Virus record (IMG/VR): IMGVR_UViG_3300017598_000635
Location: 1-30,584 of that record
DNA: 30,584 nucleotides
Origin: a virus
Strand: one strand, 5' to 3'
The first letter of the stretch is position 1. Each line of letters starts with the position of its first letter. The notes under the pieces are model-generated. The model was not told the origin of the DNA and searched no databases. It was given only the letters and a program-made list of their open reading frames with translations. Shown here in pieces: positions 2,696 through 24,896 of the stretch. The position numbers were made by a program, and so were the translations under genes.

Positions 2696-3065
2696 TGTTT
2701 ATGTTACTGGTCTTACTGAAATGATGAAAATGCTCAAACGTGCTGAGAGTCAGTTTCCTGACATGATAGAGAGCACAATGGAGCATGCATGTACGATAGC
2801 TAAAACAGAGGCTGAGAGGTTATGTCCTGTTGATAGTGGTGAGTTGCGAGACTCTATATATTGTAAACATGATGAAAAAGGTTTTGAACTTGGTGCTACA
2901 GCAAAACATGTTGTATTCAATGAATATGGATGTTATAACATAAAAGTGCCAGGTAATGCTAAATATTATGGCCAACGACCATTCATCAGACCCGCTATGT
3001 ACAAAGCTATGGAAAAAGTTCCAGATACATTTAGTAAGAACTGGGAAAAAATGACACATGGGTGA
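2688..3065 (+). CDS. HK97 gp10-like head-tail completion protein
   Basis: About 125 aa. The pattern is an N-terminal strand (VYVTGLTEMMKML), a long helix, then AKTEAERLCPVDSGELRDSI, a strand, then V-F-N-E-Y-G, and a late R-P-F-I-R-P-A-M motif. These are the hallmarks of the HK97-gp10 family (neck or tail completion proteins at the head-tail interface). Two in-frame ATGs exist at 2679 and 2688; 2688 fits better because AGGG (2674-2677) is at a workable distance, whereas it abuts 2679. The gene overlaps the end of the zinc-ribbon gene. Such genes more often sit after the connector gene, so its place next to the portal is somewhat unusual. Confidence 0.8.
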   Translation: MFSVYVTGLTEMMKMLKRAESQFPDMIESTMEHACTIAKTEAERLCPVDSGELRDSIYCKHDEKGFELGATAKHVVFNEYGCYNIKVPGNAKYYGQRPFIRPAMYKAMEKVPDTFSKNWEKMTHG

Positions 3066-3073
3066 AATAAAAA

Positions 3074-3223
3074 ATGAGCAAAGTTGTATTATGCGGTAGA
3101 CCACAAGGGTGCTGCCCGACGTTAGAAGCAGATGAATACGGATGGGAAATCAAGGATGATTTCGGTGGAATAGTTAAATTGACCAAAGAAGAAATGGAAC
3201 TTCTTATAAATGAGGTTAATTAA
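3074..3223 (+). CDS. 49-aa conserved-looking small phage protein
   Basis: ATG 3074 is preceded by GGTGA at 3061 with good spacing. The product begins MSKVVLCGRPQGCCPTLE and continues with a short acidic beta-like part (GWEIKDDFGG) and a C-terminal helix (KLTKEEMELLINEVN). It has three cysteines (7, 13, 14). I know similar small uncharacterised proteins from tailed phages, but cannot name a family with certainty. It lies between head-completion genes, so a minor structural or assembly role is possible; no function is assigned. Confidence 0.65.
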   Translation: MSKVVLCGRPQGCCPTLEADEYGWEIKDDFGGIVKLTKEEMELLINEVN

Positions 3224-3224
3224 G

Positions 3225-3617
3225 ATGGCTCCTCCGATTGTATTAACCCCTGTGATGATTAGGGATATCCAAGAGATTGTGAAACTAAATGCTGATGTAT
3301 TAGCTGCAAGGCAACAACTACAGCAGCATACAAAAGCAATAGAAGAAATAACACAACTGGTAAAAACGTTAAATACAAATAGAAATAGAAAATTACAAAA
3401 AGTAGTGGGTGGGAACCTTATTGTTGAAATCGATAATAAGATATCTCGTAAAGAACTTATGGATAGAAAGGAACAAGTGCAGGTTTCCATAAAGGGTATT
3501 GAGGAACAAATCAAACATAGAGAAGATAACTTACAGGAAGCAAAAAGTAAGATCTATCGTAATCTAGCAGGTTTCATACCTAAGGATATGCGTTTTATAC
3601 CTAAGGATATGAGATAA
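3225..3617 (+). CDS. Coiled-coil hypothetical protein
   Basis: 130 aa. The frame can be opened at 3210, but ATG 3225 is favoured: GAGG at 3212-3215 gives correct spacing and 3210 lies inside the preceding gene. The protein is almost wholly helical with heptad-like segments (VLAARQQLQQHTKAIEEI and RKEQVQVSIKGIEEQIKHRE), separated by a short beta-like G-G-N-L-I-V-E-I. The last 14 residues are a perfect tandem of FIPKDMR, encoded by two near-identical 21-base units (3573-3614). Its position just before the protease-scaffold suggests a head-assembly factor, but no family is recognised. Confidence 0.75.
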   Translation: MAPPIVLTPVMIRDIQEIVKLNADVLAARQQLQQHTKAIEEITQLVKTLNTNRNRKLQKVVGGNLIVEIDNKISRKELMDRKEQVQVSIKGIEEQIKHREDNLQEAKSKIYRNLAGFIPKDMRFIPKDMR

Positions 3618-6695: not shown

Positions 6696-9440
6696 ATGAA
6701 TGTTTATCTAGTGGCCTTAGTGGTCACATTTTTCATTTTTTTAGGGATAGTTATCCTCAAATATAAATATCCTTTTAGTTTTAAACAGAACAAAAAAAAG
6801 ATAATATCTATTATTGGTGTAGGTTTATTAGTAACAAGTGGATTATTGATGATCCCTACCGATACACCGCCTGAAGGTGATGAACCAGGTGATACAAAAC
6901 CTATTGAAAAAATAGAACCATATATATTTAAACATTATAAAGCAGAACCAGATGCAGTTTTTCAATATGATTATACAGCGAAATATATCAATAAAAGTTT
7001 TTACCGTAATTTTTTAAATGAAACAATATCATATAAATGTGAGAAATCAGTTGATAATGTTACTTGGAAAGATGCAGATAAATGCCTAGTTGTTGAAAAA
7101 AACTGGGATGGTTTTAATAAAACAAGAAAAGATACTATTATTATTGTTAGTGATGAAGATGCATATTATAGACTTTCTTTGAAAACTGATAAAGATAAAG
7201 ATATGAAAAACTTTGAAGATAAATCTATTGAAGCATATTATAATTTTGATTTTAAACTATCAAATAATGATTGGTATAATATTTCTTATGACTGGAATGA
7301 TTTTATTGTTACACCTGAATATACTAAAGCATCAATTGAGAAACAGGTAACTAGTGATACAAGTAATAAGAAACAGTTTGAATGGGATGTATATACTACT
7401 GTTAAAATAGCGAAGGGTGATAAATATGTTATTGATCCATCTTGGGGAACAGCGGTTGATGGTTCACATACATTTTATGATTTATCTATGTGTCGTCTTT
7501 CTGATACAACCTTTGCATCTGCATGGGTAGATACAACTTTTGATGGATGGGTTGCACATGGGACAGTATCAGATACAACTATAACTGTTGATGATAACTG
7601 GGAGTTTGAAAGCGGTGATATATATGCAGCTGGTAGAGGTAGTATAGGTCTGGCTATGTCACAAGATGACGTTGTATGTGTAGCATATCTAGATGATAAT
7701 CAGGGTGATGATGGATATTTGCAGATATTAGAATATAGCGGTGATGGTTGGTCATCTGATGAAACCGCAGAGTTTGAAACAGGTGATGCTGAACATATGT
7801 ATGTTGCTCCTTTAATTACAAGTGATAAATTTCTTATATGTTATAATGATGAAGGAAATAGTAATACAGCACAAGGTGTTGTATATGACTGGGTGGATTT
7901 CGGGTCTTCTACATTAGGTTCAGTAAATGATGTAGCTAGCACTGATTATTGGTCACGTAGTGGTGATGCTTTTGGTAATGGTGCAAATCAAGCAGTATAT
8001 ATATTTTTTGGAGAAGATGCTAATGATATATTTATGGCACATGCAACTATATCAACTAGAACTATAGGTTGGGGTTCAGTAGTAAGTCCATATACAGGGA
8101 CTGCTTATTTTGACAGTGGAATCAATGGCGATAGTTATACCACGGATGAATTTGTAATTGTTTATACTTTAGATGGTGGATCTAATATGCCTGTTTATGC
8201 AAGAGTTTGCACTGTATCAGGTAATACTATAACGATGGGTGATCAGACAACTATTGTAGAAGATGGATGCACTGCTGCGGTTGCTGTTGCTATGACTGAT
8301 GATTCTCATTGTTTAGTTGTAGTTGAAGAAAATATGTATGGTGTTACATATTATTGTGATGTAAATTTTGATGATAGAACTATATCACCTGGTGAGGGTG
8401 AACAATTTCATAATAATAGTATAACTAATAGTTTATTAGGTGATACACAACCATTTGATATAATACGTTTAGCTGATAATCATGTAGTTATAGGTTTTGA
8501 AAATGGTGCAGATGGTAATAATCTTTATTACATAGCTGGGACTATTGAAGCTGAAGAATGGTCTAATAGTAATTGTACAATTAGTGATGAAACTCCAAGT
8601 AATACAAGTACAGATATTGGTCTTAACCGAAGATGTAGTGCTATTGTTCAGGATGCTGATACTAATCATACTATGAATGTAACGTTTGCATCTAACAAGA
8701 CTGGTAGCTGGGTTAATTATCAGACTAACCGCACCGTGAGTAATAATACTAACTGTAGTTGGGATATGTCTATTTTTAATAGTGGTAATACAAAATACTG
8801 GTGGAAAGTCTATGCTATGGATGGGCAACTGAATGTATCTGAAGTATATAGTTTTACAACTAAAGCAAATGGTAGCTTAACAATATATAACACAACAATA
8901 CGAAATAGTGGAATCGATTATTTTACTTATCTAGGTGGAAATATAACAGCGAGTAATTTCGATGGAAACATTACAGGTTTCGATGAAGCAGCTGAATATA
9001 TAGCGACATGGACAAATACCAGTTGGTCTGCATCTGATGGATGCTGGGTTAAATGGTACGGTGATGGCACAGGGACAGATTTCAACCTATCTACTTTTGA
9101 TATAATATGTATCTATCTAACTGATAGCGGTAATCAAACTATCAATATGACAGAGAACGAGAATATACCTAGTTATACAAACTCTAAAGCATATACATTT
9201 ACAAATCACTCGCTCAACCAAGGATATAATTATACGAGTTACAACCGTGAAGCTGTCACTACATTATCAACGGTTAACACATCTATTGGGCTTGAGTCCG
9301 GTGAATTTTTAGCATTGTGGAATCAGACAAATTATAACTGGGATTACTGGATTGTGGGTTTTTGGGAACCATCTACAAATATTCATCGATGGGCTGTGAT
9401 TGTGACCAAAGTAGAAGATACGGAGACATATAATACATGA
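6696..9440 (+). CDS. 914-aa membrane-anchored, sequon-rich surface protein with Fn3-like domain
   Basis: AGGAGA precedes ATG 6696. Two hydrophobic segments are seen, about residues 3-23 and 36-53, followed by an acidic proline-rich linker (TPPEGDEPGDTKP), so the rest is predicted to sit outside a membrane. Residues about 260-620 show repeated beta strands with V-C-V-A-Y-L-D-D and H-C-L-V-V-V-E-type signatures, compatible with a beta-propeller. Residues about 631-723 form a fibronectin-III-like module beginning after T-P-S-N-T-S-T-D and ending in Y-S-F-T-T-K, a style common in archaeal surface proteins. There are at least 20 N-x-S/T sequons, mostly in the C-terminal half. It sits oddly between capsid and connector genes. 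It could be a virion spike, a superinfection or adhesion factor displayed on the infected cell, or an S-layer mimic. Exact function unknown. Confidence 0.8.
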   Translation: MNVYLVALVVTFFIFLGIVILKYKYPFSFKQNKKKIISIIGVGLLVTSGLLMIPTDTPPEGDEPGDTKPIEKIEPYIFKHYKAEPDAVFQYDYTAKYINKSFYRNFLNETISYKCEKSVDNVTWKDADKCLVVEKNWDGFNKTRKDTIIIVSDEDAYYRLSLKTDKDKDMKNFEDKSIEAYYNFDFKLSNNDWYNISYDWNDFIVTPEYTKASIEKQVTSDTSNKKQFEWDVYTTVKIAKGDKYVIDPSWGTAVDGSHTFYDLSMCRLSDTTFASAWVDTTFDGWVAHGTVSDTTITVDDNWEFESGDIYAAGRGSIGLAMSQDDVVCVAYLDDNQGDDGYLQILEYSGDGWSSDETAEFETGDAEHMYVAPLITSDKFLICYNDEGNSNTAQGVVYDWVDFGSSTLGSVNDVASTDYWSRSGDAFGNGANQAVYIFFGEDANDIFMAHATISTRTIGWGSVVSPYTGTAYFDSGINGDSYTTDEFVIVYTLDGGSNMPVYARVCTVSGNTITMGDQTTIVEDGCTAAVAVAMTDDSHCLVVVEENMYGVTYYCDVNFDDRTISPGEGEQFHNNSITNSLLGDTQPFDIIRLADNHVVIGFENGADGNNLYYIAGTIEAEEWSNSNCTISDETPSNTSTDIGLNRRCSAIVQDADTNHTMNVTFASNKTGSWVNYQTNRTVSNNTNCSWDMSIFNSGNTKYWWKVYAMDGQLNVSEVYSFTTKANGSLTIYNTTIRNSGIDYFTYLGGNITASNFDGNITGFDEAAEYIATWTNTSWSASDGCWVKWYGDGTGTDFNLSTFDIICIYLTDSGNQTINMTENENIPSYTNSKAYTFTNHSLNQGYNYTSYNREAVTTLSTVNTSIGLESGEFLALWNQTNYNWDYWIVGFWEPSTNIHRWAVIVTKVEDTETYNT

Positions 9441-11977
9441 CGTTACCTGTTCCCTTTCCAGTTTTTGGAATCGTTACAGATGCGGGTTCACCAGTTGATG
9501 GTGCTCTTGTCCATGCCTCCGGTGCAGATACCACTACAGATGCTGATGGTAAATATCGTATAGATTTAAAAGATTACGCAACTGATGGAGATACCATAGT
9601 TATAAATGCATCAGATAGTGGTAAAAATAAACATACATCATTTACTCTAGATATATCAGATGGGGTTAAGCAATATAATCTTGCACTTGCGGACACAACA
9701 ATATCTGATTCAGTTATTTTATCTGATAGTTTATCTAAATCTGCAACAATAATAAGAACTGCTTCTGATGGTATTGTGTTAGGTGATTCCTTATCTGAAG
9801 CTCTTACCGCTATTCGTAGTTTATCAGATTCAATGGTGATAGATGATTCACTATCTAAAGAGGCTACCTTCTATAACACTCAAACAGATGGAATGGTATT
9901 GGGTGATTCTCTTAGCTCAGTTAAATCAATAATAAAAGCGTTATCTGATGGGATAGTGTTAGCAGATTCTTTATCTAAAATAACTACATTCTATAATACT
10001 CAAACAGATGGAATAGTATTAAGTGAGTCAATCTCTACAATTAAAGCAATCATTGAATCATTATCAGATGGGGTTGTTGTTGGTGATTCATCAACTAAAA
10101 CATCCACTTTCTATAATACTCAGTCAGATGGTGTTGTATTAGCTGATTCCATTTCATCGATTAAATCAATCATTAAGACCTTAGCTGATGGTGTAGTGTT
10201 GAGTGATTCTTTGGATATAGATGCCGCTTTCTACAATACCCAGTCAGATGGACTTGTTATAGGTGATGCTCTTGCTTCACTCAAAGCGGTTTATGAGGCA
10301 TTATCTGATGGAATAGTACTGGCGGATTCAACATCTATATTAACATCATTCCTAGCATCACTATCAGATTCGGTAACCTTGGATGATACACTCACTAGGA
10401 AAACATCCTATGAGCGAACATTGTCAGATTCAATAATCAATAGTGATAGTTTATCAAATCTGACATCATTCTATCGAACATCATCAGATGGTATTGTATT
10501 GGATGATACAATAAATGCGATTAAAGCATTCTTTAAAACAATATCAGATTCACTGGTGCTAGCTGACAACACAAGTAATTTTACAACTTTCGAAAGAACC
10601 AGCTCAGATTCAATAACAGTAGCTGATGCATTAAGTAAATCGGCCACCTTCATTAATACTCAAACAGATGGCATCGTTCTTTCAGATACACAATCAGCTA
10701 TTAAGGCATTCTTTACTGCATTATCTGAATCACTGGTATTAAATGATTCATTATCAAGACTAACATCATATGAACGAACTTTATCAGATTCAATTGTTAA
10801 TAATGATAGTTTAACAACAAAATCTAGTTTCTATAATATACAATCAGATTCAATAGTGGTGGATGATGCAATGAGTGCTATTAAAGCATTCTTCAAAACA
10901 TTATCCGAATCAATAGTGTTAAATGACTCCTTCACATCGGTCAATTCATTTCTGAAATCATTATCAGATGCAATAATACTTGATGATTCATTATCTAAAT
11001 TTGCAACATTTGAAATAACTAATTCAGATTCAATAATATTATCAGATGCATTTTCACAGATTGCTTCATTAGAAAGAACAAAATCTGATGGAATAGTCAT
11101 TGGTGATTCTCTTACCGCGGTTAATACTTTCTTACAGACATTAACCGAATCAATAATACTCGATGACAACCTATCAAAAATTGGAAGTTTCTATAATACT
11201 CAAACAGACACAGTGATATTGAATGATTCACTTTCATCAATTAAATCATTCTTCAGAACTTTATCCGACTCATTGGTATTAGACGATAACACCAGTATGA
11301 TTAAAGCATTCTTTAAAACGTTAGCTGACTCAATAGTGGTGGATGATTCATTATCTAGATCTGTTACATATATAAATACTCAAACAGATGGGATTGTGCT
11401 AAGTGATAATCTTTCATCTATTAAATCATTCTTCGCTACGTTATCTGAATCATTGATATTGGATGATTCAATGAGTGATCTAGGATTATTCTTTGCTACA
11501 TTATCAGATGCTATAGTGGTGGATGATGCATTAAGCTCTACGGAAACATTTTTCAGATTACTTTCAGAGTCATTAAACTTGGATGATGCATTAGATAAAA
11601 TAGCTACATTTGTAATAACACCATCAGATGGGATAGTGCTGAGTGATACCGAGAGTGATGCAAAATCAGCATATTCAACATTAACAGAGGGAATAGTTAT
11701 ATCAGATTCACTCTCTAGGCTTGCATCATATAGACAGAGTATATCAGATGGATTAGTAATAAGTGATACAATATCTAGCATAAGAGCATTCTTCACAACA
11801 TTGTCAGATAATGTAATAATATCTGAATCAAAAACACTTGAGTTTGCTCTGAAACTACCATTATTTGTTACAGGTGTAATAGAAGATTTATATAATATAA
11901 AATCGAGTAAAGAAGATAAATATCATATTATGAGTTCAAAAGAACAAAAAAATAAAATAGAAAAAAAGGATTGGTAA
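9437..11977 (+). CDS. 846-aa repeat protein: CarboxypepD_reg-like head plus about 36 x 20-aa repeats
   Basis: Starts in an ATGA overlap with the preceding gene. Residues about 8-85 look like a carboxypeptidase-regulatory or Cna-B-like beta sandwich (GIVTDAGSPVDGALVHASGA, then D-A-D-G-K-Y-R-I-D). From residue 90 to about 809 there is an uninterrupted array of 20-residue units, S-D-G/S-I-V-L-x-D-S-L-S-x-x-x-x-F-x-x-T/S-x. A lysine-rich tail follows (KSSKEDKYHIMSSKEQKNKI). There are no cysteines in the array; the regular S-D and D-D/D-S pairs suggest a beta-solenoid or fibrous rod, perhaps calcium-dependent. No signal peptide is visible. With the upstream gene it interrupts the head module. Possible roles are a capsid-attached fibre or a stalk; this is inference. 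Confidence 0.85.
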   Translation: MTLPVPFPVFGIVTDAGSPVDGALVHASGADTTTDADGKYRIDLKDYATDGDTIVINASDSGKNKHTSFTLDISDGVKQYNLALADTTISDSVILSDSLSKSATIIRTASDGIVLGDSLSEALTAIRSLSDSMVIDDSLSKEATFYNTQTDGMVLGDSLSSVKSIIKALSDGIVLADSLSKITTFYNTQTDGIVLSESISTIKAIIESLSDGVVVGDSSTKTSTFYNTQSDGVVLADSISSIKSIIKTLADGVVLSDSLDIDAAFYNTQSDGLVIGDALASLKAVYEALSDGIVLADSTSILTSFLASLSDSVTLDDTLTRKTSYERTLSDSIINSDSLSNLTSFYRTSSDGIVLDDTINAIKAFFKTISDSLVLADNTSNFTTFERTSSDSITVADALSKSATFINTQTDGIVLSDTQSAIKAFFTALSESLVLNDSLSRLTSYERTLSDSIVNNDSLTTKSSFYNIQSDSIVVDDAMSAIKAFFKTLSESIVLNDSFTSVNSFLKSLSDAIILDDSLSKFATFEITNSDSIILSDAFSQIASLERTKSDGIVIGDSLTAVNTFLQTLTESIILDDNLSKIGSFYNTQTDTVILNDSLSSIKSFFRTLSDSLVLDDNTSMIKAFFKTLADSIVVDDSLSRSVTYINTQTDGIVLSDNLSSIKSFFATLSESLILDDSMSDLGLFFATLSDAIVVDDALSSTETFFRLLSESLNLDDALDKIATFVITPSDGIVLSDTESDAKSAYSTLTEGIVISDSLSRLASYRQSISDGLVISDTISSIRAFFTTLSDNVIISESKTLEFALKLPLFVTGVIEDLYNIKSSKEDKYHIMSSKEQKNKIEKKDW
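9704..11863 (+). repeat. Tandem array of about 36 units of exactly 60 bp (20 codons)
   Basis: Every unit is 60 bases long, with no insertion or deletion over 2160 bases. Units carry S/T-D/E-G/S-I/V-V-L at fixed positions. In several stretches two unit types alternate, one ending in T-F-Y-N-T-Q and one containing S-I-K-S/A followed by two bulky residues and ending K-T/A-L, giving a 120-base higher-order period. The last unit is degenerate. The repeats lie wholly within the coding frame. Confidence 0.95.
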
Positions 11978-13412: not shown

Positions 13413-14315
13413 ATGGCAAATGAAATTTCGTTCCCTTTCGGGGGAGATATATATTATAGCGTTGAGACTGGATATGGTACTGGGTTAACAGGAACTCTGT
13501 TACATTTCTCTGATGCGGTGACTGATGTAAGAATAGAAACAGGGGATATAAATACAGCCCTTAGGACTATTTCTGAACCATCTATTGCTGATTTCAGTAG
13601 AACACTTGTTGATCCCATGCTACATCTAGAATGGGTTTTACAACCAAATGTGAATGATTTTGAGAAAAAGTTAATTGATAGGACAAATTGTGATTTAGAT
13701 AGTTTAGCTTTCGAAGTTGCTGTGAACCAATGTAGTTCAGGGAGTGATACATATTATTATCTGAAAGGATGTAAATGTAAAACTTTTACAATTAGTGCAT
13801 CACAAGGAGAGAACTATACATGCAGTGCTGATTTCAGTGTTTCAACAGTAACTACACATACAGCTGCACAAGGAACACCACCAGTGTCAGCTCTTGGAAC
13901 AGAATATGCAGCTTTCAATATAGCAGGGAGTGTCACATGGTCATCAGCTGGTACATGGGCTGGAGCATACGTGACAAATTCATTAGATGTAACAATAGAT
14001 AACAATATCCAAGATCTATATGATGTTGGATCTAAGACTAAAAAAGCAGCTATACCTGGTGCAATAGATGTAACTGGGAGCTGTGACTTGAGTGTTGATG
14101 ACGGTGGAAAAACATTTTGGGATGATATCAAAATGGGTGTAGATATTACTAGCGTAGTATTCAACACTGGTTTAACAACTGGTAATTGTGGAAAGATTAC
14201 TTTAAACAATGGAAGGTTTGATAGTCATTCAATAGATGTGAATACTTCTGGTGAAGGGATGATCAGTAGTGTTCCATTTACATTCAAAATGATGGCTATA
14301 ACAACTGGAACATAA
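13413..14315 (+). CDS. Major tail (tube) protein
   Basis: 300 aa. GAGGTGA lies at 13396-13402 upstream of ATG 13413, a near-ideal ribosome binding site as expected for an abundant protein. The chain begins MANEISFPFGGDIYYSVETG, is beta-rich throughout and contains a typical late strand pattern (N-S-L-D-V-T-I-D-N-N-I-Q and a C-terminal S-S-V-P-F-T-F-K-M). It is followed by terminator-like hairpins, then the frameshifted chaperone and tape measure, an order that almost defines the tube gene of a siphovirus. Like the capsid protein it is cysteine-rich (seven Cys). No sheath gene is present, so the tail should be non-contractile. Confidence 0.8.
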   Translation: MANEISFPFGGDIYYSVETGYGTGLTGTLLHFSDAVTDVRIETGDINTALRTISEPSIADFSRTLVDPMLHLEWVLQPNVNDFEKKLIDRTNCDLDSLAFEVAVNQCSSGSDTYYYLKGCKCKTFTISASQGENYTCSADFSVSTVTTHTAAQGTPPVSALGTEYAAFNIAGSVTWSSAGTWAGAYVTNSLDVTIDNNIQDLYDVGSKTKKAAIPGAIDVTGSCDLSVDDGGKTFWDDIKMGVDITSVVFNTGLTTGNCGKITLNNGRFDSHSIDVNTSGEGMISSVPFTFKMMAITTGT

Positions 14316-14316
14316 A

Positions 14317-14357
14317 GTGTGGGGAGTTACCCTCACATTTTCCCAATTTTGCGGGAA
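14317..14357 (+). terminator. Hairpins after tail tube gene
   Basis: GTG-T-GGG (14317-14323) can pair with CCC-T-CAC (14330-14336) with one T-T mismatch. A second small hairpin is TTCCC (14340-14344) with GGGAA (14353-14357), and T-rich sequence follows each. A terminator or attenuator here would hold tube protein high and the downstream chaperone low, a common need in tail operons. Stems are short, so confidence is moderate. Confidence 0.45.
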
Positions 14358-14380
14358 TTTTCTAATTTTGTAAGGGTAAT

Positions 14381-14400
14381 AATCACTTATATTGGTGATT
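14381..14400 (+). promoter_or_regulatory. Hairpin with TATA-like loop upstream of chaperone gene
   Basis: AATCAC (14381-14386) and GTGATT (14395-14400) are perfect inverted arms around TTATATTG. The loop is TATA-like and lies about 30 bases before ATG 14423, so it may be a promoter element with a short leader or part of an attenuator. No experimental support. Confidence 0.3.
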
Positions 14401-14422
14401 TTACAGGAATGTGAGATAATAT

Positions 14423-14740
14423 ATGACAAAGAAAATAAAACTATCCTTCATAAATGAAGGAAAAGAGTTTGAAGCACCACATATAACTGTGAAGATGCAG
14501 GAAGAAATACTTGAAGAAATGTCAAAACTAGATAGTAATAAAATGAGTAAAGAAAAATATAACTCTATACTCAATAGATCTTTTATTTTAAAAGTTTTGA
14601 ATAAAATAGATGATAAAGTTACAGTGAAACATATAGATGATATGCATCCTGAAGATTTTATCACACTTTTTGGTATTATCTGGGAGGGTGGCCGAGAACT
14701 CGTGTCAGATGATGAAGGAAATTTTCGCAAAACAAAATAA
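14423..14740 (+). CDS. Tail assembly chaperone G (zero-frame product)
   Basis: 105 aa: MTKKIKLSFINEGKEFEAPH at the start, a helical body, and H-P-E-D-F-I-T-L-F-G-I-I-W near the end. Size and position (after the tube, before the tape measure) fit the lambda gpG-type chaperone that coats the tape measure protein during tail assembly. The zero frame ends at TAA 14738-14740, while a second frame continues without an obvious start of its own, the classic sign of a programmed frameshift. The start has a weak ribosome binding site (GTGAGATAAT). Sequence families of these chaperones diverge strongly, so the call rests mainly on architecture. Confidence 0.75.
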   Translation: MTKKIKLSFINEGKEFEAPHITVKMQEEILEEMSKLDSNKMSKEKYNSILNRSFILKVLNKIDDKVTVKHIDDMHPEDFITLFGIIWEGGRELVSDDEGNFRKTK

Positions 14741-14958
14741 AACTTAGTGCGAAAGATCAACTTGAAAACTTTCGTGACTATAAATATGCTTTATTCATGG
14801 AAACAGGTGGGATGAAGGATATAAATGACATGAGTCTGAAGGACTTTAACAATCTGAATAGATACTTAGCTAGACGTGAAAGAATTCGTGATAATAAAAC
14901 AGTTCCATTACGGGATAGCCAGAAAGAAATGATAAAAAGAGCGAAGGAGAGAAAATAA
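14423..14958 (+). CDS. Tail assembly chaperone G-T fusion by -1 frameshift
   Basis: Reads 14423-14725, slips back one base and continues 14725-14958. The slippery heptamer A_AAT_TTT (14719-14725) is in the correct register, and the -1 frame is open only from 14716, so the slip must occur in the short 14716-14740 window, where this is the only X_XXY_YYZ site. The fusion would be 178 aa; the T part continues S-Q-N-K-I-K-L-S-A-K-D-Q-L-E-N-F-R and ends in a basic helix (EMIKRAKERK). The T part normally recruits tube subunits to the chaperone-coated tape measure. An inverted repeat CGAAAG (14750-14755) with CTTTCG (14769-14774) lies downstream but is far for a stimulator. The frameshift is inferred; the motif is seen. 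Confidence 0.75.
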
Positions 14959-14959
14959 A

Positions 14960-17900
14960 ATGGCTGAAAAGGTTGTGGCAATAAATTTTACTACTACAGG
15001 TGCCCAGAATGTAATTACTAAAATGGATAAAATGAGTATGCATATGAGTAAAATGGGTACTATGACCACTCGTTATAATACACAAGGTCAAGCTTTGAGT
15101 GCAACCTGGAATAAAAATGCAACCATGGCTGACAAACTTAAAAAAGGAGTCGGTGGCCTTGCTGTACAATTTGTAAGTTTGCAGGCAGCGGTGTCCATTG
15201 CCACACGTATTATCAAAGGATTATGGGAATGGGGGAAGAAATCAGCTGATACATTCCGTGATTTCGAACATGCCATAGCTGAAGTATCTACAATCTTAAC
15301 TGGTGAAGGGGTTAATGCTATCCATGCAATGTCAGCTGGGGTGGAAGAGTTATCTGTTAGATGGGGTAAATCTACAAATGACTTAGCTAGAGGGTTATAT
15401 GATATTTTATCAGCTGCTGTAGATGCATCCAAAGCAATGGATCTTTTATCAATAGCAACTAGAGCATCAATAGCTGGTATTACATCTGTTGAAACATCCG
15501 TTGATGTATTTACAAGTATAATTAATTCATATGGTAAAACTGTAGCACAAGCTAGTGGTTTATCAGATATGTTATTCCAGACTGTGGTACGTGGTAAACT
15601 TGTCTTTGAAGATCTGGCATCTGCTATGGGTTACATAACACCGATAGCTGCTAACTTAGGTGTAGAATTTGAAGAAATAGCTGCTGCATTATCAACAGTT
15701 ACTCGTCAAGGTCTTCATGTAGATATGGCTACTCGTGGTCTTGCTTTAGGTTTACAGAATATTTCAACATTATCTGGTGAAGCTGCTGATGCTGCAAAAA
15801 AATATGGTGTTGATCTAAGTGCATTGGCATTAAGAGTCGGTGGATTAGAGGTTATAATAAAAGATCTAAATGATGCTATGAAAACATATGGTGCCAGCAT
15901 ACTACCTGAAATGATACGTAACATGCGTTCCCTTCGTGTATATATGGCTCTCGCTGGTGATGAAGGGGTACAGGGTTTTTCAGATGATTTAGATTTATTA
16001 AATAATGCAACAGGGAGAACTAATGAAGCTCTTTCTAAAATGGCGAGCACTGCTAAAACTGAAGTACAGATTATGGAACAGACCATGGCTGAGCTTGAAC
16101 GTAGCATTGGTGATACATGGCATGGTATAGATATCTGGTGGAAAAAAGCCAAATTGTGGTGGGGTGCATTATTCTCTGGTGAAAACCCTGGTAAAACTGT
16201 AAAAGAATATGATGATAGAATAGCTGAGTTGAATCAAAACTTTTTAAAATATTATGATTTAAGAGCAAGGCTGGATAAAATAAAACCAGTTGGTAAAGAA
16301 GCTGTTAAATTCCTTGAATATAATAGACTTAATACCTCTGAGCTTAGGGAACAGCATGATATTACAGCTGCAATGGTATCTCATTGGCATACTCTATATG
16401 CTACAGTGAAAGGCACCACTGAAAGAATGAAAATACGTGATCCAGTCCGAGGTCAAGATTTTGCTAATATTTATGGTGATGAAGGCCTCAGAAACATGGA
16501 GTCATATAATGAAGAATATAAAATAATGAAGGGGTATCAAAGAGATACACTCACTGGTATTATTGATAGAAATATTGATTGGGGTTCAGTTGAAAAATAT
16601 TTAGGAAAAAGTAAACTTGTGGAAGATGCCAATGAAAAAATGAATGAGTCATGGCGTAAAGTACAAGATTTGCAAGCTAAAGCTGATAAACAACCAAGTG
16701 GGATATGGGATGCTGATAGATTACATGGTGCTCCTGATACAGATATTGATGCAGCATTAAAACATGAAGAAACAGTATATGAAGCTTTAGTTGAAGATGC
16801 AAAAAACTTAAATACTGAAATAGATCAAAATCTTGAAGGATATAATCAATTATCAGGTGAATTAGATGGGTTATCAGAGGATGCAGAGATAGCTAAAACA
16901 AACATAATGGAGTTAACCAATGAGATAAAAGAGCTGGATTATAAAATACATGATACCTATAAAACAATGGGGGGCCAGGAGTTTCAGGGAACAGAACGAT
17001 GGAAAATTGCCACAGCGGGTACAGAAGCATCTCTTGACCGATTTCTTAAATATTCACAGATGAGCATCAAATATGGTGATGAATTCAAAGACACCTATAT
17101 GGATAATATTAAACAAATAGAGGGATATGAAGAAGCAGTGGGATCTGCAAATAGCTATTTAAACTATTTCAATGAATCAATTTGGGAGATTACTAAATCA
17201 GATAGTGACTATAATGGTAGCATCAAAGACCTCATTAAGAGTTTATCCGAATATGAACAAGCAGAAAAAAAGGCATCAGAGGGTGTTGAGAAACATAAAA
17301 CAGAACTTGATAGACTAAATATGGCTGTTCAAAAAAATAATCTTGCTATAATGAAACTTGATCTTAAAGGTATGAAACGTAGAAGAGGTCTGAATAGAAC
17401 AGAGCAGCGTAAAATTAAAAAGATACAGATATCCAATATGAAACATCGTATCAGCATGTTGGAGATTGAGACATCTGAGGAATACCAACAGGATAAAAAA
17501 CAGGTTGATGAAAAAAGTAAACATTTCCAGAAACTAAGTGATTTATATAGTGAATATACCGATAGAGTTAAACATAGTTTATGGGAGATGAAAGACACCA
17601 GGGATAGTGATATTGAAGACTTAGTAAATGATATATCGTTATACCAAGAAAATTATGATAAATATAATAAATGGTTAAAAGTAAATGAGCAGAACTTAAA
17701 AAATATTGGTATCGCTATAGATGCTATAACTAAGGCAATTGATGCTGGCCCGGCTTCTGATGAATGGGAAGAGTTTTTTGGGCAATCTGCTGCATTAACC
17801 TATAAAGATACATTATCCGATATTGTAGATTTTTTAAATGATATAGATGAAAAAAGTGGTGGGAATAATCCCATAACTATGGCGGATGTAACACATACCC

Positions 17901-18202
17901 CAATAGCAGCTCCTCTCTTCACAGGGAATGCGTTAGGATATGGTATACAATTTGCAACAAATCAACGTGGCTCATATTATATCCCTAAGACACAGCCATA
18001 TATGCTGCATAAAGGAGAAACTGTATCACCAGCTGGGAGTAAAGGAGGTATGGGAGGCACAGTCCATGTCCATCTAGATCCAATACATGTAAATGCTGTG
18101 CTAAAAACAAATACTGATGTTCGAACACTCGGGTCAAAAATAGGCCAAGCAATCGCAGCGGGTCTTGTGGATGGTGTCACATCAGAGTATGAGGTAGGGT
18201 GA
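14960..18202 (+). CDS. Tape measure protein (TP901-type core)
   Basis: 1080 aa, with GGAGA upstream of ATG 14960. Residues about 90-290 carry the conserved TP901-type tape measure core: F-E-H-A-I-A-E-V-S-T-I-L, L-A-R-G-L-Y-D-I-L-S-A-A-V-D-A, the V-D-V-F-T-S-I-I-N-S-Y-G segment and A-A-L-S-T-V-T-R-Q-G. A hydrophobic amphipathic segment lies near 55-75. The middle and C-terminal thirds are long charged coiled coils. Near the end are Y-Y-I-P-K-T-Q-P-Y-M-L-H-K-G-E-T-V and a G-G-T-V-H-V-H-L-D strand, both common at tape measure C-termini. By the usual rule of about 0.15 nm per residue this suggests a tail near 160 nm long. No peptidase domain was recognised. Confidence 0.93.
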   Translation: MAEKVVAINFTTTGAQNVITKMDKMSMHMSKMGTMTTRYNTQGQALSATWNKNATMADKLKKGVGGLAVQFVSLQAAVSIATRIIKGLWEWGKKSADTFRDFEHAIAEVSTILTGEGVNAIHAMSAGVEELSVRWGKSTNDLARGLYDILSAAVDASKAMDLLSIATRASIAGITSVETSVDVFTSIINSYGKTVAQASGLSDMLFQTVVRGKLVFEDLASAMGYITPIAANLGVEFEEIAAALSTVTRQGLHVDMATRGLALGLQNISTLSGEAADAAKKYGVDLSALALRVGGLEVIIKDLNDAMKTYGASILPEMIRNMRSLRVYMALAGDEGVQGFSDDLDLLNNATGRTNEALSKMASTAKTEVQIMEQTMAELERSIGDTWHGIDIWWKKAKLWWGALFSGENPGKTVKEYDDRIAELNQNFLKYYDLRARLDKIKPVGKEAVKFLEYNRLNTSELREQHDITAAMVSHWHTLYATVKGTTERMKIRDPVRGQDFANIYGDEGLRNMESYNEEYKIMKGYQRDTLTGIIDRNIDWGSVEKYLGKSKLVEDANEKMNESWRKVQDLQAKADKQPSGIWDADRLHGAPDTDIDAALKHEETVYEALVEDAKNLNTEIDQNLEGYNQLSGELDGLSEDAEIAKTNIMELTNEIKELDYKIHDTYKTMGGQEFQGTERWKIATAGTEASLDRFLKYSQMSIKYGDEFKDTYMDNIKQIEGYEEAVGSANSYLNYFNESIWEITKSDSDYNGSIKDLIKSLSEYEQAEKKASEGVEKHKTELDRLNMAVQKNNLAIMKLDLKGMKRRRGLNRTEQRKIKKIQISNMKHRISMLEIETSEEYQQDKKQVDEKSKHFQKLSDLYSEYTDRVKHSLWEMKDTRDSDIEDLVNDISLYQENYDKYNKWLKVNEQNLKNIGIAIDAITKAIDAGPASDEWEEFFGQSAALTYKDTLSDIVDFLNDIDEKSGGNNPITMADVTHTPIAAPLFTGNALGYGIQFATNQRGSYYIPKTQPYMLHKGETVSPAGSKGGMGGTVHVHLDPIHVNAVLKTNTDVRTLGSKIGQAIAAGLVDGVTSEYEVG

Positions 18203-20957: not shown

Positions 20958-23522
20958 TTGGCTTATAATGATACACAGGATAGTAATACATCAATTGATT
21001 ATGGTGAATGGAACAACATGGTTAAAGAAATAGACCATGAAGATACTGGTGGTAATTGGTATAGTATGAATGCTGCTGGTAACCTAGTATTGGATGCATC
21101 GTCAAATATTATTATGAGAGATGATGGAACACAGATATTTGAATTTTATACCAATACCATAGAATTTGGTACAGACCGAGGTATATATATCAATGATGAT
21201 GAGACATATATAGGAATAGGTGCAGGGGATAACATAACAGCTGGTAGTGGGATTAATAATACACTTGTTGGACATGATGCAGGAAACGATGTAAATACTG
21301 GCGATGATAATACAATAGTTGGGAGTGAAGCTGGTGAAAAAATCAATACTGGGTATCAAAATACACTTGTTGGACATAATGCTGGTGGTGATTTAACTGA
21401 TGATAGAGATAATACTATGATTGGATGGCAAGCTGGGTATCAGGCAACAACAGATTTCCATACTTTAGTTGGTAGTCTTGCAGGTAGTAGTATAACTGAT
21501 GGTACTTATCTTACTGCTATTGGGTACGGTGCTGGTGTTGGTATTTCATCAGGTGATTATAATACCCTTATAGGTCATAAAGCTCAAAATTCAAGTGATG
21601 CTAGTAATGTTGTAGCAGTTGGATATGAAGCAGCAAGATATAATGATAAAGATGGATGTGTATTTGTTGGTTATCAAGCTGGTATTGCAAATACTGGTAT
21701 TGGAAATCTTGGTATAGGCCGTGGAGCATGTGGTGATGCAGCTTTATCTGGTGGATATAATACATGTATAGGTGAATATTGTGGTCTTGATATTAATACT
21801 GGTTCTAATAACACGGGTGTAGGTCGAGAAAGTTTTAGGTATCTTTCAACTGGTGCTTATAACGTAGCACTTGGTCAGGGAGCTGCTAGGGATATACAAT
21901 CTGGTAACTATAATGTTTGTATTGGTAATGAAGCAGGTGGAAATACAGCTGAAGGGATGGATAACTGTGTATTGATAGGTCATCAAGCTGGTGAAGATAA
22001 CACTGCAGCTAATATTGTAGCTGTAGGTTATAATGCTTTGAAGGATAATGAGGGAATTGGGAATACTGCTGTTGGATATGTATCAATGGATGCAGAGGTA
22101 ACAGGAGCTAATAATACAGCATTAGGTTATGCAAGTCTTACAGCTGGAGAAGGTGCAGCAGGAAATACAGCACTTGGATATTATACACTAGCAGCAACCA
22201 CGACAGGATCATCAAATGCTGCAGTTGGGTATCGTGCTGGAGCTAATATGGGAGTTGCTGTAGATAGTTGTGTTTTAATGGGATATACAGCAGGTGAAGA
22301 TAATGACCAGAGTAATATTGTAGCTATTGGATATGGTGCATTAAAAGATAACACTGGTGGTTCTCACGCTGTAGGAATTGGGCATCAAGTATTTAATAAT
22401 GCATCATACACTGGTGATAATAATACAGCTGTGGGTTATCAAGCAGGTCTTGCTAATACAACTGGTCAGGGTAATGTTTTTATTGGTGAAATATCTGGGA
22501 CAGCAAACAACACTGGTTATTATAATACATTTATAGGTAGAGCATGTGGAACAAATAATGAAGATGGAGTCCTAAATACATTTGTAGGTTTAGCAGCAGG
22601 TAATGGAATTGTTTCAGGTGATAAAAATGTTGCAATAGGGGGAGAAACACTTGAAACGGAAGATGTAAATAATTGTGTAGCTATTGGTTATCAAGCAGGT
22701 GAAGATAATGACCAGAATAATATCGTAGCTATTGGTTACGGTGCATTAAAGGATAATAGTGGAACTGCTAATACAGCAATAGGTTATCAAGCGATGGATG
22801 CTGCATGTACAGGTGCTGATAATACAGCATGTGGATATGAAGCACTCGGAGGCAATTTAGGAGGCATTCGTAATGTTGCTTTTGGTAGAGGAACGGCAAA
22901 AGCCCTGACAACTGGTTCATATAATACCTTTTTAGGAACATACAGTGGAAATGCAATAACAACGGGGATGAATAATACTTTTATTGGGTATGCTACTGGA
23001 TATGATTCTACATGCACACTAAGCGGTTGTGTTTATCTTGGATATAATGCTGGTGCTGGCAGAAATGTAAATAACCAATTATATATTTCAAATTCAAACA
23101 CCGCTTATCCATTAATAGGTGGAAACTTTAGTACACCAAGCATAGGATTCGGAGATGGATCATCTGAATATTTTTTAACATTTGATAAAAATGGAACACA
23201 TAGTAGAATTTATGGTGGAAACGATTCAGGTGATGGACTTTTATTAATTGCAAATATACCTGATGGTTATCCATATATAACTCTTGATAACGGAGCTGGT
23301 ATTGCATTAGATACTGAATCAGGTGCAGATATATTAATTAAAGAAGGTGGTACACAATATGCTCAATTTTCGTTAGAAAACGCAGGTGGTATATTATATC
23401 TTGATGAAACCACTGATGCACCATCAGCTAAGGCAAACTATGGTGCGGTTTATACTAAATCTGATAATAAATTATATTTCCAGGATGGAGCTGGAGCAGA
23501 ACATACGGTGGCGTTTGCATGA
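20958..23522 (+). CDS. Tail fibre with YadA-like beta-roll head repeats
   Basis: 854 aa, starting at TTG 20958 with GGTGA (20949-20953) five bases before it. Residues about 1-75 form a fibre N-terminus (S-I-D-Y-G-E-W-N-N-M-V, then G-N-L-V-L-D-A-S-S-N-I). Residues about 80-690 contain roughly 36 copies of N-T-A/L-I/V-G-x-x-A-G, the left-handed parallel beta-roll repeat of trimeric autotransporter heads, implying a trimeric rod for host binding. The C-terminus (A-N-Y-G-A-V-Y-T-K-S-D-N-K-L-Y-F-Q-D-G-A-G-A-E-H-T-V) is the kind of end found on phage fibres; no S74 self-cleaving chaperone follows. Three segments (about 21966-22049, 22269-22352 and 22674-22757) are close copies built on A-G-E-D-N and N-I-V-A-V/I-G-Y, showing recent internal duplication. 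It likely determines host specificity. Confidence 0.88.
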   Translation: MAYNDTQDSNTSIDYGEWNNMVKEIDHEDTGGNWYSMNAAGNLVLDASSNIIMRDDGTQIFEFYTNTIEFGTDRGIYINDDETYIGIGAGDNITAGSGINNTLVGHDAGNDVNTGDDNTIVGSEAGEKINTGYQNTLVGHNAGGDLTDDRDNTMIGWQAGYQATTDFHTLVGSLAGSSITDGTYLTAIGYGAGVGISSGDYNTLIGHKAQNSSDASNVVAVGYEAARYNDKDGCVFVGYQAGIANTGIGNLGIGRGACGDAALSGGYNTCIGEYCGLDINTGSNNTGVGRESFRYLSTGAYNVALGQGAARDIQSGNYNVCIGNEAGGNTAEGMDNCVLIGHQAGEDNTAANIVAVGYNALKDNEGIGNTAVGYVSMDAEVTGANNTALGYASLTAGEGAAGNTALGYYTLAATTTGSSNAAVGYRAGANMGVAVDSCVLMGYTAGEDNDQSNIVAIGYGALKDNTGGSHAVGIGHQVFNNASYTGDNNTAVGYQAGLANTTGQGNVFIGEISGTANNTGYYNTFIGRACGTNNEDGVLNTFVGLAAGNGIVSGDKNVAIGGETLETEDVNNCVAIGYQAGEDNDQNNIVAIGYGALKDNSGTANTAIGYQAMDAACTGADNTACGYEALGGNLGGIRNVAFGRGTAKALTTGSYNTFLGTYSGNAITTGMNNTFIGYATGYDSTCTLSGCVYLGYNAGAGRNVNNQLYISNSNTAYPLIGGNFSTPSIGFGDGSSEYFLTFDKNGTHSRIYGGNDSGDGLLLIANIPDGYPYITLDNGAGIALDTESGADILIKEGGTQYAQFSLENAGGILYLDETTDAPSAKANYGAVYTKSDNKLYFQDGAGAEHTVAFA

Positions 23523-24131: not shown

Positions 24132-24896
24132 ATGGGAAAAACAATAGGCGTAATAGCTGTACTTGTTGCACTAGCTTTAATTCTAGGTGCAGGTGCTCTA
24201 TACATCGCTGTGAAAAATAATGATAGCTTGGTGGAAGATATCGATGACATCGAACTTCTATCGGGTAACGCTGGAGAAACAGGGCCCGCTGGAAATGTAG
24301 GGCCTAAAGGTGAACAAGGAGAGAAAGGAGATATAGGTGAAACAGGGGAAGATGGTGCTGATGGAGCTGATGGTTCACATGGAGCCGTTGGACCACAAGG
24401 GCCAAAGGGTGACCCAGGTACAAACCTTATGGACACTCCTCCTGTAATGACAGAACATACAATGGATGGCCTCGTGGGAATATGCGATGACTGGACATTT
24501 AGTGTCATGTTATATGAACCAGATAATGGACAAATGAAGGTAGAGTTCTATCTATATGTCAATACATCATGGTTAGATTGTATAGAGCTACCAATATGTT
24601 GGGATTATTCAATAGCAGATCTGGTAGGGGATCATGTATGGCTACCATTCTATAATGAAGTAGGTCGTAATGGCGTGTTTAGTTTTGATGCAAATCATAT
24701 TAGAGACGTTTTATCATACTACTTAGTAGATGGAGCACCATGTGAAGATTTCATGTGGAGAGTTGATGTACAAGATTGCGGATGTTTCTGGTCAGAGACG
24801 TTTACATTCACCCCAACTTGTGATGGCTATGACGGCTGTGGCGACTGTTGCCCGTTATGTGATGGGGAATACTGTCAGCCATGTGATGTATGTTAA
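24132..24896 (+). CDS. Membrane-anchored collagen-like protein with Cys-rich tail
   Basis: 254 aa, with AAGGAGAT before ATG 24132. Residues about 5-27 are a strong hydrophobic anchor ([20 protein letters not shown]). Residues about 45-98 are some 18 uninterrupted G-x-y triplets (G-N-A, G-E-T, G-P-A up to G-D-P, G-T-N) rich in P, E, K and D, a collagen-like triple helix. A globular beta-rich domain follows, and the last 26 residues hold nine cysteines in pairs such as C-G-D-C-C and C-Q-P-C. Collagen-like rods are known in phage fibres; the N-terminal anchor suggests a cell-envelope or virion-membrane position instead. It is probably trimeric. Adhesion, spacing or lysis-linked roles are all possible. 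Confidence 0.8.

Follow-up and report, generated by a model that had tools for sequence, protein, structure and literature searches.

By what means is a second reading frame expressed when it lacks a plausible start codon of its own? The question is raised by IMG/VR record IMGVR_UViG_3300017598_000635 (G000; 30,584 bases, G+C content ~34%), the whole of which is referred to below as the window, and in which two overlapping open reading frames (ORFs), here G (zero frame) and T (-1 frame), are situated between the genes for the tail tube and the tape measure protein. The original prediction had placed a programmed -1 frameshift in this tail assembly chaperone at the heptamer A_AAT_TTT. Comparison with homologous loci strongly supports the shift, but not the heptamer as its conserved unit, and we regard it as very probable that G and T constitute a lambda-type G/GT tail assembly chaperone gene in which the -1 frameshift takes place at U_UUU_C.

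Direct reading of the window confirmed the position of the zero-frame stop and the extent of the -1 frame, which is open from 14716 to 14958 and preceded by two stops; the claim that this frame has no good start held as well, its earliest ATG (14797) lying within the conserved T domain. A_AAT_TTT is, as predicted, the only in-frame X_XXY_YYZ of the overlap and stands in the proper register, with CGC as the next zero-frame codon. In the entire record 65 in-frame X_XXY_YYZ heptamers were counted over 8924 codons (~0.06 expected in the 8-codon overlap), and NNT_TTT_C was encountered 8 times among the same codons (~0.007 expected). A shift at this site would give rise to a G-T fusion with a predicted length of 178 amino acids (aa) and the predicted junction peptide ELVSDDEGNFSQNK.

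Relatives and their reading frames

Single-protein searches with G, the tape measure protein and the tail tube protein returned no match in IMG/VR. The first relative (G001, locus L005/L105) was reached through the terminase, and alignments were used for the rest: a search with five aligned tape measure proteins recovered 80 IMG/VR loci, and iterated hidden Markov models (HMMs) detected both G and T in a total of 48 loci (window and G007 included). The 47 homologous loci all belong to uncultivated viruses; L007 and L010, which were also examined as relatives, turned out not to be close kin. The frame of T relative to G is -1 at 45 loci out of 48 and +1 at three (L101, L116 and L140); at no locus do the two share a frame, and both frames are kept as protein across the relatives. 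L005 shares 42% (zero frame) and 46% (-1 frame) identity with the window and has the same gene order. As a separate observation, the zero-frame chaperone of G001 (L005, 5880-5960, minus strand) has no ATG, GTG or TTG at the homologous start, which points to an ATA start or a sequence error.

Given that these are metagenomic contigs with a short homopolymer at the site, the split between the frames might be attributed to assembly error or gene decay; the agreement of 48 loci from many assemblies, with protein conservation in both frames, leaves this explanation with practically negligible probability, and it was already refuted for the -1 group. Separate production of T, through coupled re-initiation or a start of its own, would draw on the nearness of the G stop to the T body and on the 3 of 45 T ORFs with a possible start at or before the conserved domain. 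We consider it very unlikely, as the other 42 of the 45 distinct loci have no ATG, GTG or TTG there, and it would leave unexplained both the conserved T_TTT_C and the hairpin described below.

Nucleotide conservation at the junction

The junction of L005 reads AAG GAT TTT CGG, against GGA AAT TTT CGC in the window, so that the heptamer is not conserved even between these two. The sites were counted with the TTT codon as anchor, and every overlap does contain such a codon. Among the 42 distinct -1 sites the bases before TTT were G_GAT in 20, A_AAT in 8, A_TAT in 8, A_CAT in 2, G_GGT in 2, and A_CTT and A_TCT in one each. Strict X_XXY_YYZ heptamers are thus present in 10 sites only (8 A_AAT, 2 G_GGT), and in the remaining 32 the heptamer, in its strict sense, is lost while both frames stay intact, an outcome that the original prediction had named as speaking against it. 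T_TTT was found at the junction in 42 of 42 sites, followed by C in 41.

The residue encoded at the P site varies (Asp, Asn, Tyr, His, Gly, Leu, Ser), and its codon ends in T in 42 of 42 cases, whereas the other NNY codons of Asp, Asn, Tyr and His in the same genes do so in 683 of 941 (73%). Similarly, the Phe codon of the shift site is always TTT (164 of 228, or 72%, elsewhere in these genes), other Phe codons are followed by C in 15 of 228 cases (7%), and the Arg codons after the site are CGN in 26 of 26 instances, compared with 85 of 193 elsewhere. As judged from these counts, the constraint at the junction acts on nucleotides and not on residues, and the conserved unit is U_UUU_C rather than the heptamer. 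In tape measure relatives from outside the family (L147-L179), the corresponding overlap mostly carries A_AAA_AAC or A_AAA_AAA, and NNT_TTT_C was found in none of these overlaps. While frameshift sites of tail chaperones are usually described virus by virus, the 48 homologous loci show which bases are kept.

Downstream RNA structure

A hairpin (stem of at least 4 pairs, at least 3 of them G-C) starting 4-6 nucleotides (nt) after TTT, nearly always at 5 or 6, occurs in 21 of the 32 distinct -1 clusters (defined by <80% identity around the site). No offset outside 5-6 exceeds 4 loci, and shuffled sequences give 0.16 per offset. The stems differ between loci through compensatory two-sided changes (GGGTC/GACCC, GGAGG/CCTCC, GCCCGT/ACGGGC and more), which include G-C swapped to C-G, A-U and U-A. 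Downstream of the site, folding energies were below those in the rest of the genes (mean z -1.39 vs -0.28; p 3e-6, not corrected for kinship). A -1 stimulator is usually located at this distance of 5-6 nt. Transcriptional slippage would find its substrate in the T run of the core; this run comprises four T (three in the +1 members), which is short for a polymerase, and the hairpin spacing fits a ribosome, rendering such an origin extremely unlikely.

In the tree built from G and T, the window groups with L117, L105, L109 and L118 (support 100/98), and none of these five has the hairpin at 5-6 nt. All members of this clade carry CGC or CGG after TTT, codons that are very rare in the record (CGC 0.6 and CGG 0.4 per 1000, against 16 for AGA). 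The link between the absence of the hairpin and CGN as the following codon is no more than suggestive; in this clade the hairpin may be replaced by a slow CGN codon.

Farther downstream, the window can fold into a distal stem-loop (z about -3.1 over the 60 nt after the site, -3.4 to -3.8 over 100 nt). A shorter stretch of 48 nt, which cuts off the 3' arm, gives z +0.23. The stem-loop starts 19 nt after the site and past the stop codon, a long way off for a stimulator; over the window and its four nearest relatives 63% of the cells are paired, with some two-sided changes. No fold like it was seen in L117 and L105, and RNAalifold applied to the window clade gave no convincing structure. Two inverted repeats had initially been put forward as possible tuners of the shift. 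The first (CGCA/TGCG, 14726-14729 and 14748-14751) is present, but nothing was found that bears out a tuning role; the second (CGAAAG/CTTTCG) does form the core of the distal stem, but tuning by this remote and weakly conserved element is not established.

Proposed mechanism

We propose that most ribosomes would end at 14740 and yield G, while in a minority the tRNA-Phe seated on UUU (14723-14725), with the rare CGC waiting, would move back one base onto UUU (14722-14724), after which reading would continue in the -1 frame and produce the G-T fusion. In most relatives the hairpin 5-6 nt downstream would help the slip, a task that the slow CGN codon may take over in the window clade. Gene order, reading frames, the conserved site and the covarying hairpin of the relatives are observed; we infer the slippage itself, its level, the tRNAs that would move and the roles of G and GT.

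Several observations weigh against the proposal of a lambda-type chaperone frameshift at U_UUU_C. The window is devoid of the hairpin seen in most of its relatives; more generally, for a bipartite -1 signal with a 3' structure 5-9 nt after the site, no hairpin was found in the window, pseudoknots not having been searched. The 48 loci are kin, and their counts do not represent independent events. Finally, neither G nor T significantly matches any named chaperone family in Pfam or PHROGs.

A different mechanism, concerning the details of the slip and not the frameshift as such, is that of tandem slippage, in which the P-site (AAT to AAA) and A-site (TTT to TTT) tRNAs would both re-pair and the UUU_C core would be insufficient by itself. 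The window heptamer is a perfect X_XXY_YYZ, the hairpinless window clade retains the better heptamers (A_AAT, G_GAT, G_GGT), and sites of the G_GA_UUUU type are in use by other viruses (PMC5009743). Against this stand the 12 of 42 distinct relatives with TAT, CAT, CTT or TCT in the P site, codons with poor -1 re-pairing, which nevertheless keep T_TTT and usually the hairpin. We deem tandem slippage possible, while leaning towards doubt, and continue with the slip of tRNA-Phe on U_UUU_C.

An apparent change of frameshift direction

The three +1 members carry AAA_TTT_CGA_ATC (L101), AAA_TTT_CGA_TGA (L140) and TCC_TTT_CGT_ACG (L116); they have TTT_CGN in the same register, no T before TTT, and T in the +1 frame. 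A sequencing error in all three contigs is unlikely, because T precedes TTT in none of them and in 42 of 42 sites of the -1 group. Their +1 frame could instead be reached by a -2 shift.

In the G and T tree, L101, L116 and L140 form one clade (support 97/87) that is sister to the window clade (97/95), whereas the tape measure tree scatters them over three positions. Three independent switches of direction, as the latter tree had suggested, were dropped in view of the former. The G/T cassette and the tape measure gene differ in history, perhaps through exchange of the cassette, or one of the trees is wrong; on the G and T sequences, we argue for one switch of direction, and the +1 trio probably represents a single event.

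U_UUU_C contains both a Z_ZZN and a UUU_Y element, the former being a minimal -1 site and the latter prone to +1 slippage (PMC5009743). Because the +1 members have AAA or TCC before TTT_CGN and adjoin the window clade, the same UUU_C codon appears to be used for the other frame. We tentatively suggest, with reservations, that UUU_C serves both directions: tRNA-Phe would slip -1 if U precedes UUU and +1 (onto UUC) if it does not, so that a change before the codon, together with the matching change of the downstream frame, would have switched the direction once between sister G-T clades, in the branch without the -1 hairpin. A -1/+1 switch at the same codon makes the evolution of frameshift direction testable with few point changes.

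TTT-CGC was proposed as a +1 site in haloviruses of the HF1 group (PMC7230728), and TCC_TTT_CGT equals the motif reported for influenza PA-X, UCC_UUU_CGU (PMC3498833). The +1 members, two with AAA_TTT_CGA and one with TCC_TTT_CGT, fit this UUU_CGN type. The window does not belong to it, for it has UUU_CGC but T in the -1 frame; here, as in most relatives, the same UUU_C would serve the -1 shift. Apart from this family, locus L099 (2981-3572; G023) belongs to a bacterial-type phage whose chaperone pair is apparently unrelated; with a +1 second frame and an overlap that contains ACC_TTT_CGT_ATC, it constitutes an independent candidate for +1 shifting at UUU_CGN.

Relation to known frameshift sites

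The lambda-type G/GT frameshift of tailed phages is reportedly the subject of work by Xu, Hendrix and Duda from 2004. The device is known in phages; the switch of direction at one site is the unusual part. In common with the lambda-type arrangement (reviewed in PMC5009743), the present locus has two overlapping frames before the tape measure gene, a -1 shift near the end of G, and a T without its own start. It differs in that its G and T sequences match no named family at profile level, in its site (U_UUU_C as opposed to the G_GGA_AAG type), in the covarying hairpin of its relatives at 5-6 nt, and in a sister clade that shifts +1.

Among haloarchaeal tailed viruses, HVTV-1, HCTV-1, HCTV-2 and HCTV-5 use a -1 and HSTV-2 a +1 shift between G and T (PMC5009743). 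The same gene pair is involved there, and both directions likewise occur among different viruses. As for the bases before UUUU, G_GA works as X_XX in several viruses (PMC5009743), and GGAUUUU is the -1 site of umbraviruses and dianthoviruses (PMC5009743, PMC4737148), akin to the G_GAT_TTT seen in 20 of our 42 sites; those viruses and genes are unrelated, and rely on long-range structures in place of a short hairpin at 5-6 nt. In the open-licence literature searched, we found no description of the present variant (U_UUU_C core, covarying hairpin that one clade lacks, reversed direction in its sister clade).

Chaperone identity and host

The assignment of G as a chaperone draws on its position, the arrangement of the frames and a moderate fold match. 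Its AlphaFold model (predicted local distance difference test, pLDDT, 85) matched best, among PDB structures, 3klu (Bacillus subtilis YqbN; Z 5.8, next 3.1), which we take to be a prophage-encoded member of the XkdN-like tail chaperones. Several BFVD matches of G are named tail assembly chaperone, although they are weak (E 0.12 and worse, none < 0.001), and no match came from a profile search with G against PDB sequences. In lambda, the role of G is to coat the tape measure protein, and that of the T part is to bring in tail tube subunits (PMC5009743); by analogy of position and arrangement, G and GT would act alike here, with GT linking tape measure and tail tube as the tail is put together.

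As regards the host, for which the original prediction implied a contrast with bacterial phages, two scans of 84,980 genomes (GTDB representatives) yielded no relative of the terminase, isolate phages gave no match to G or T, and neither PCNA nor MCM turned up among 40 records, of which many are fragmentary.

Genomic context

The record has a layout of the siphovirus type (large terminase, portal, capsid, tail tube, G/T pair, tape measure), continued beyond the tape measure gene by tail and fibre-like genes, with a methylase and a D5-type helicase on the minus strand. The order tube, G, T, tape measure is repeated in L005 and L096, and in L094 with one extra ORF between the tail tube and chaperone genes (G010, reverse complement 2896-3405), perhaps a nuclease insertion. 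Region 13413-16000 of the window had no DNA match among 50,697 phage records.

Table 1. Coordinates of the chaperone locus and flanking genes within the window.
Feature	Position	Strand	Basis and remarks
Tail tube protein, gene before G	13413..14315	+	PF18906 E 5e-10, phrog_290 E 3e-17
G, zero-frame tail assembly chaperone (probable), 105 aa	14423..14740	+	ORF; homologue in 47 other loci
Shift site A_AAT_TTT (predicted)	14719..14725	+	Direct reading; conserved core U_UUU_C = 14722-14726
T, -1-frame extension after the predicted shift, 77 aa	14725..14958	+	First codon TCG (Ser); stop TAA 14956-14958; HMM match in 47 other loci
CGC, codon after shift codon	14726..14728	+	0.6 per 1000 codons in G000 (codon count)
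Zero-frame stop TAA	14738..14740	+	Direct reading
Distal stem-loop, core CGAAAG/CTTTCG (14750-14755, 14769-14774)	14745..14780	+	Folding; role unproven
Tail tape measure protein, gene after T	14960..18202	+	phrog_1533 E 4e-38, PF10145 E 3e-25

Elsewhere in the window, an 846-aa protein (9437-11977) contains dozens of SDSIVLSDSLSK-type repeats, a shorter version of which is present in L005 (8390-9640), and an 854-aa protein (20958-23522) has many NTAVGYQAG-like repeats. A collagen-like Gly-X-Y stretch was noted in the product of 24132-24896, while that of 23647-24108 matches PF18022 Lectin_C_term (E 4e-7), which is odd for the structural region of a tailed virus.
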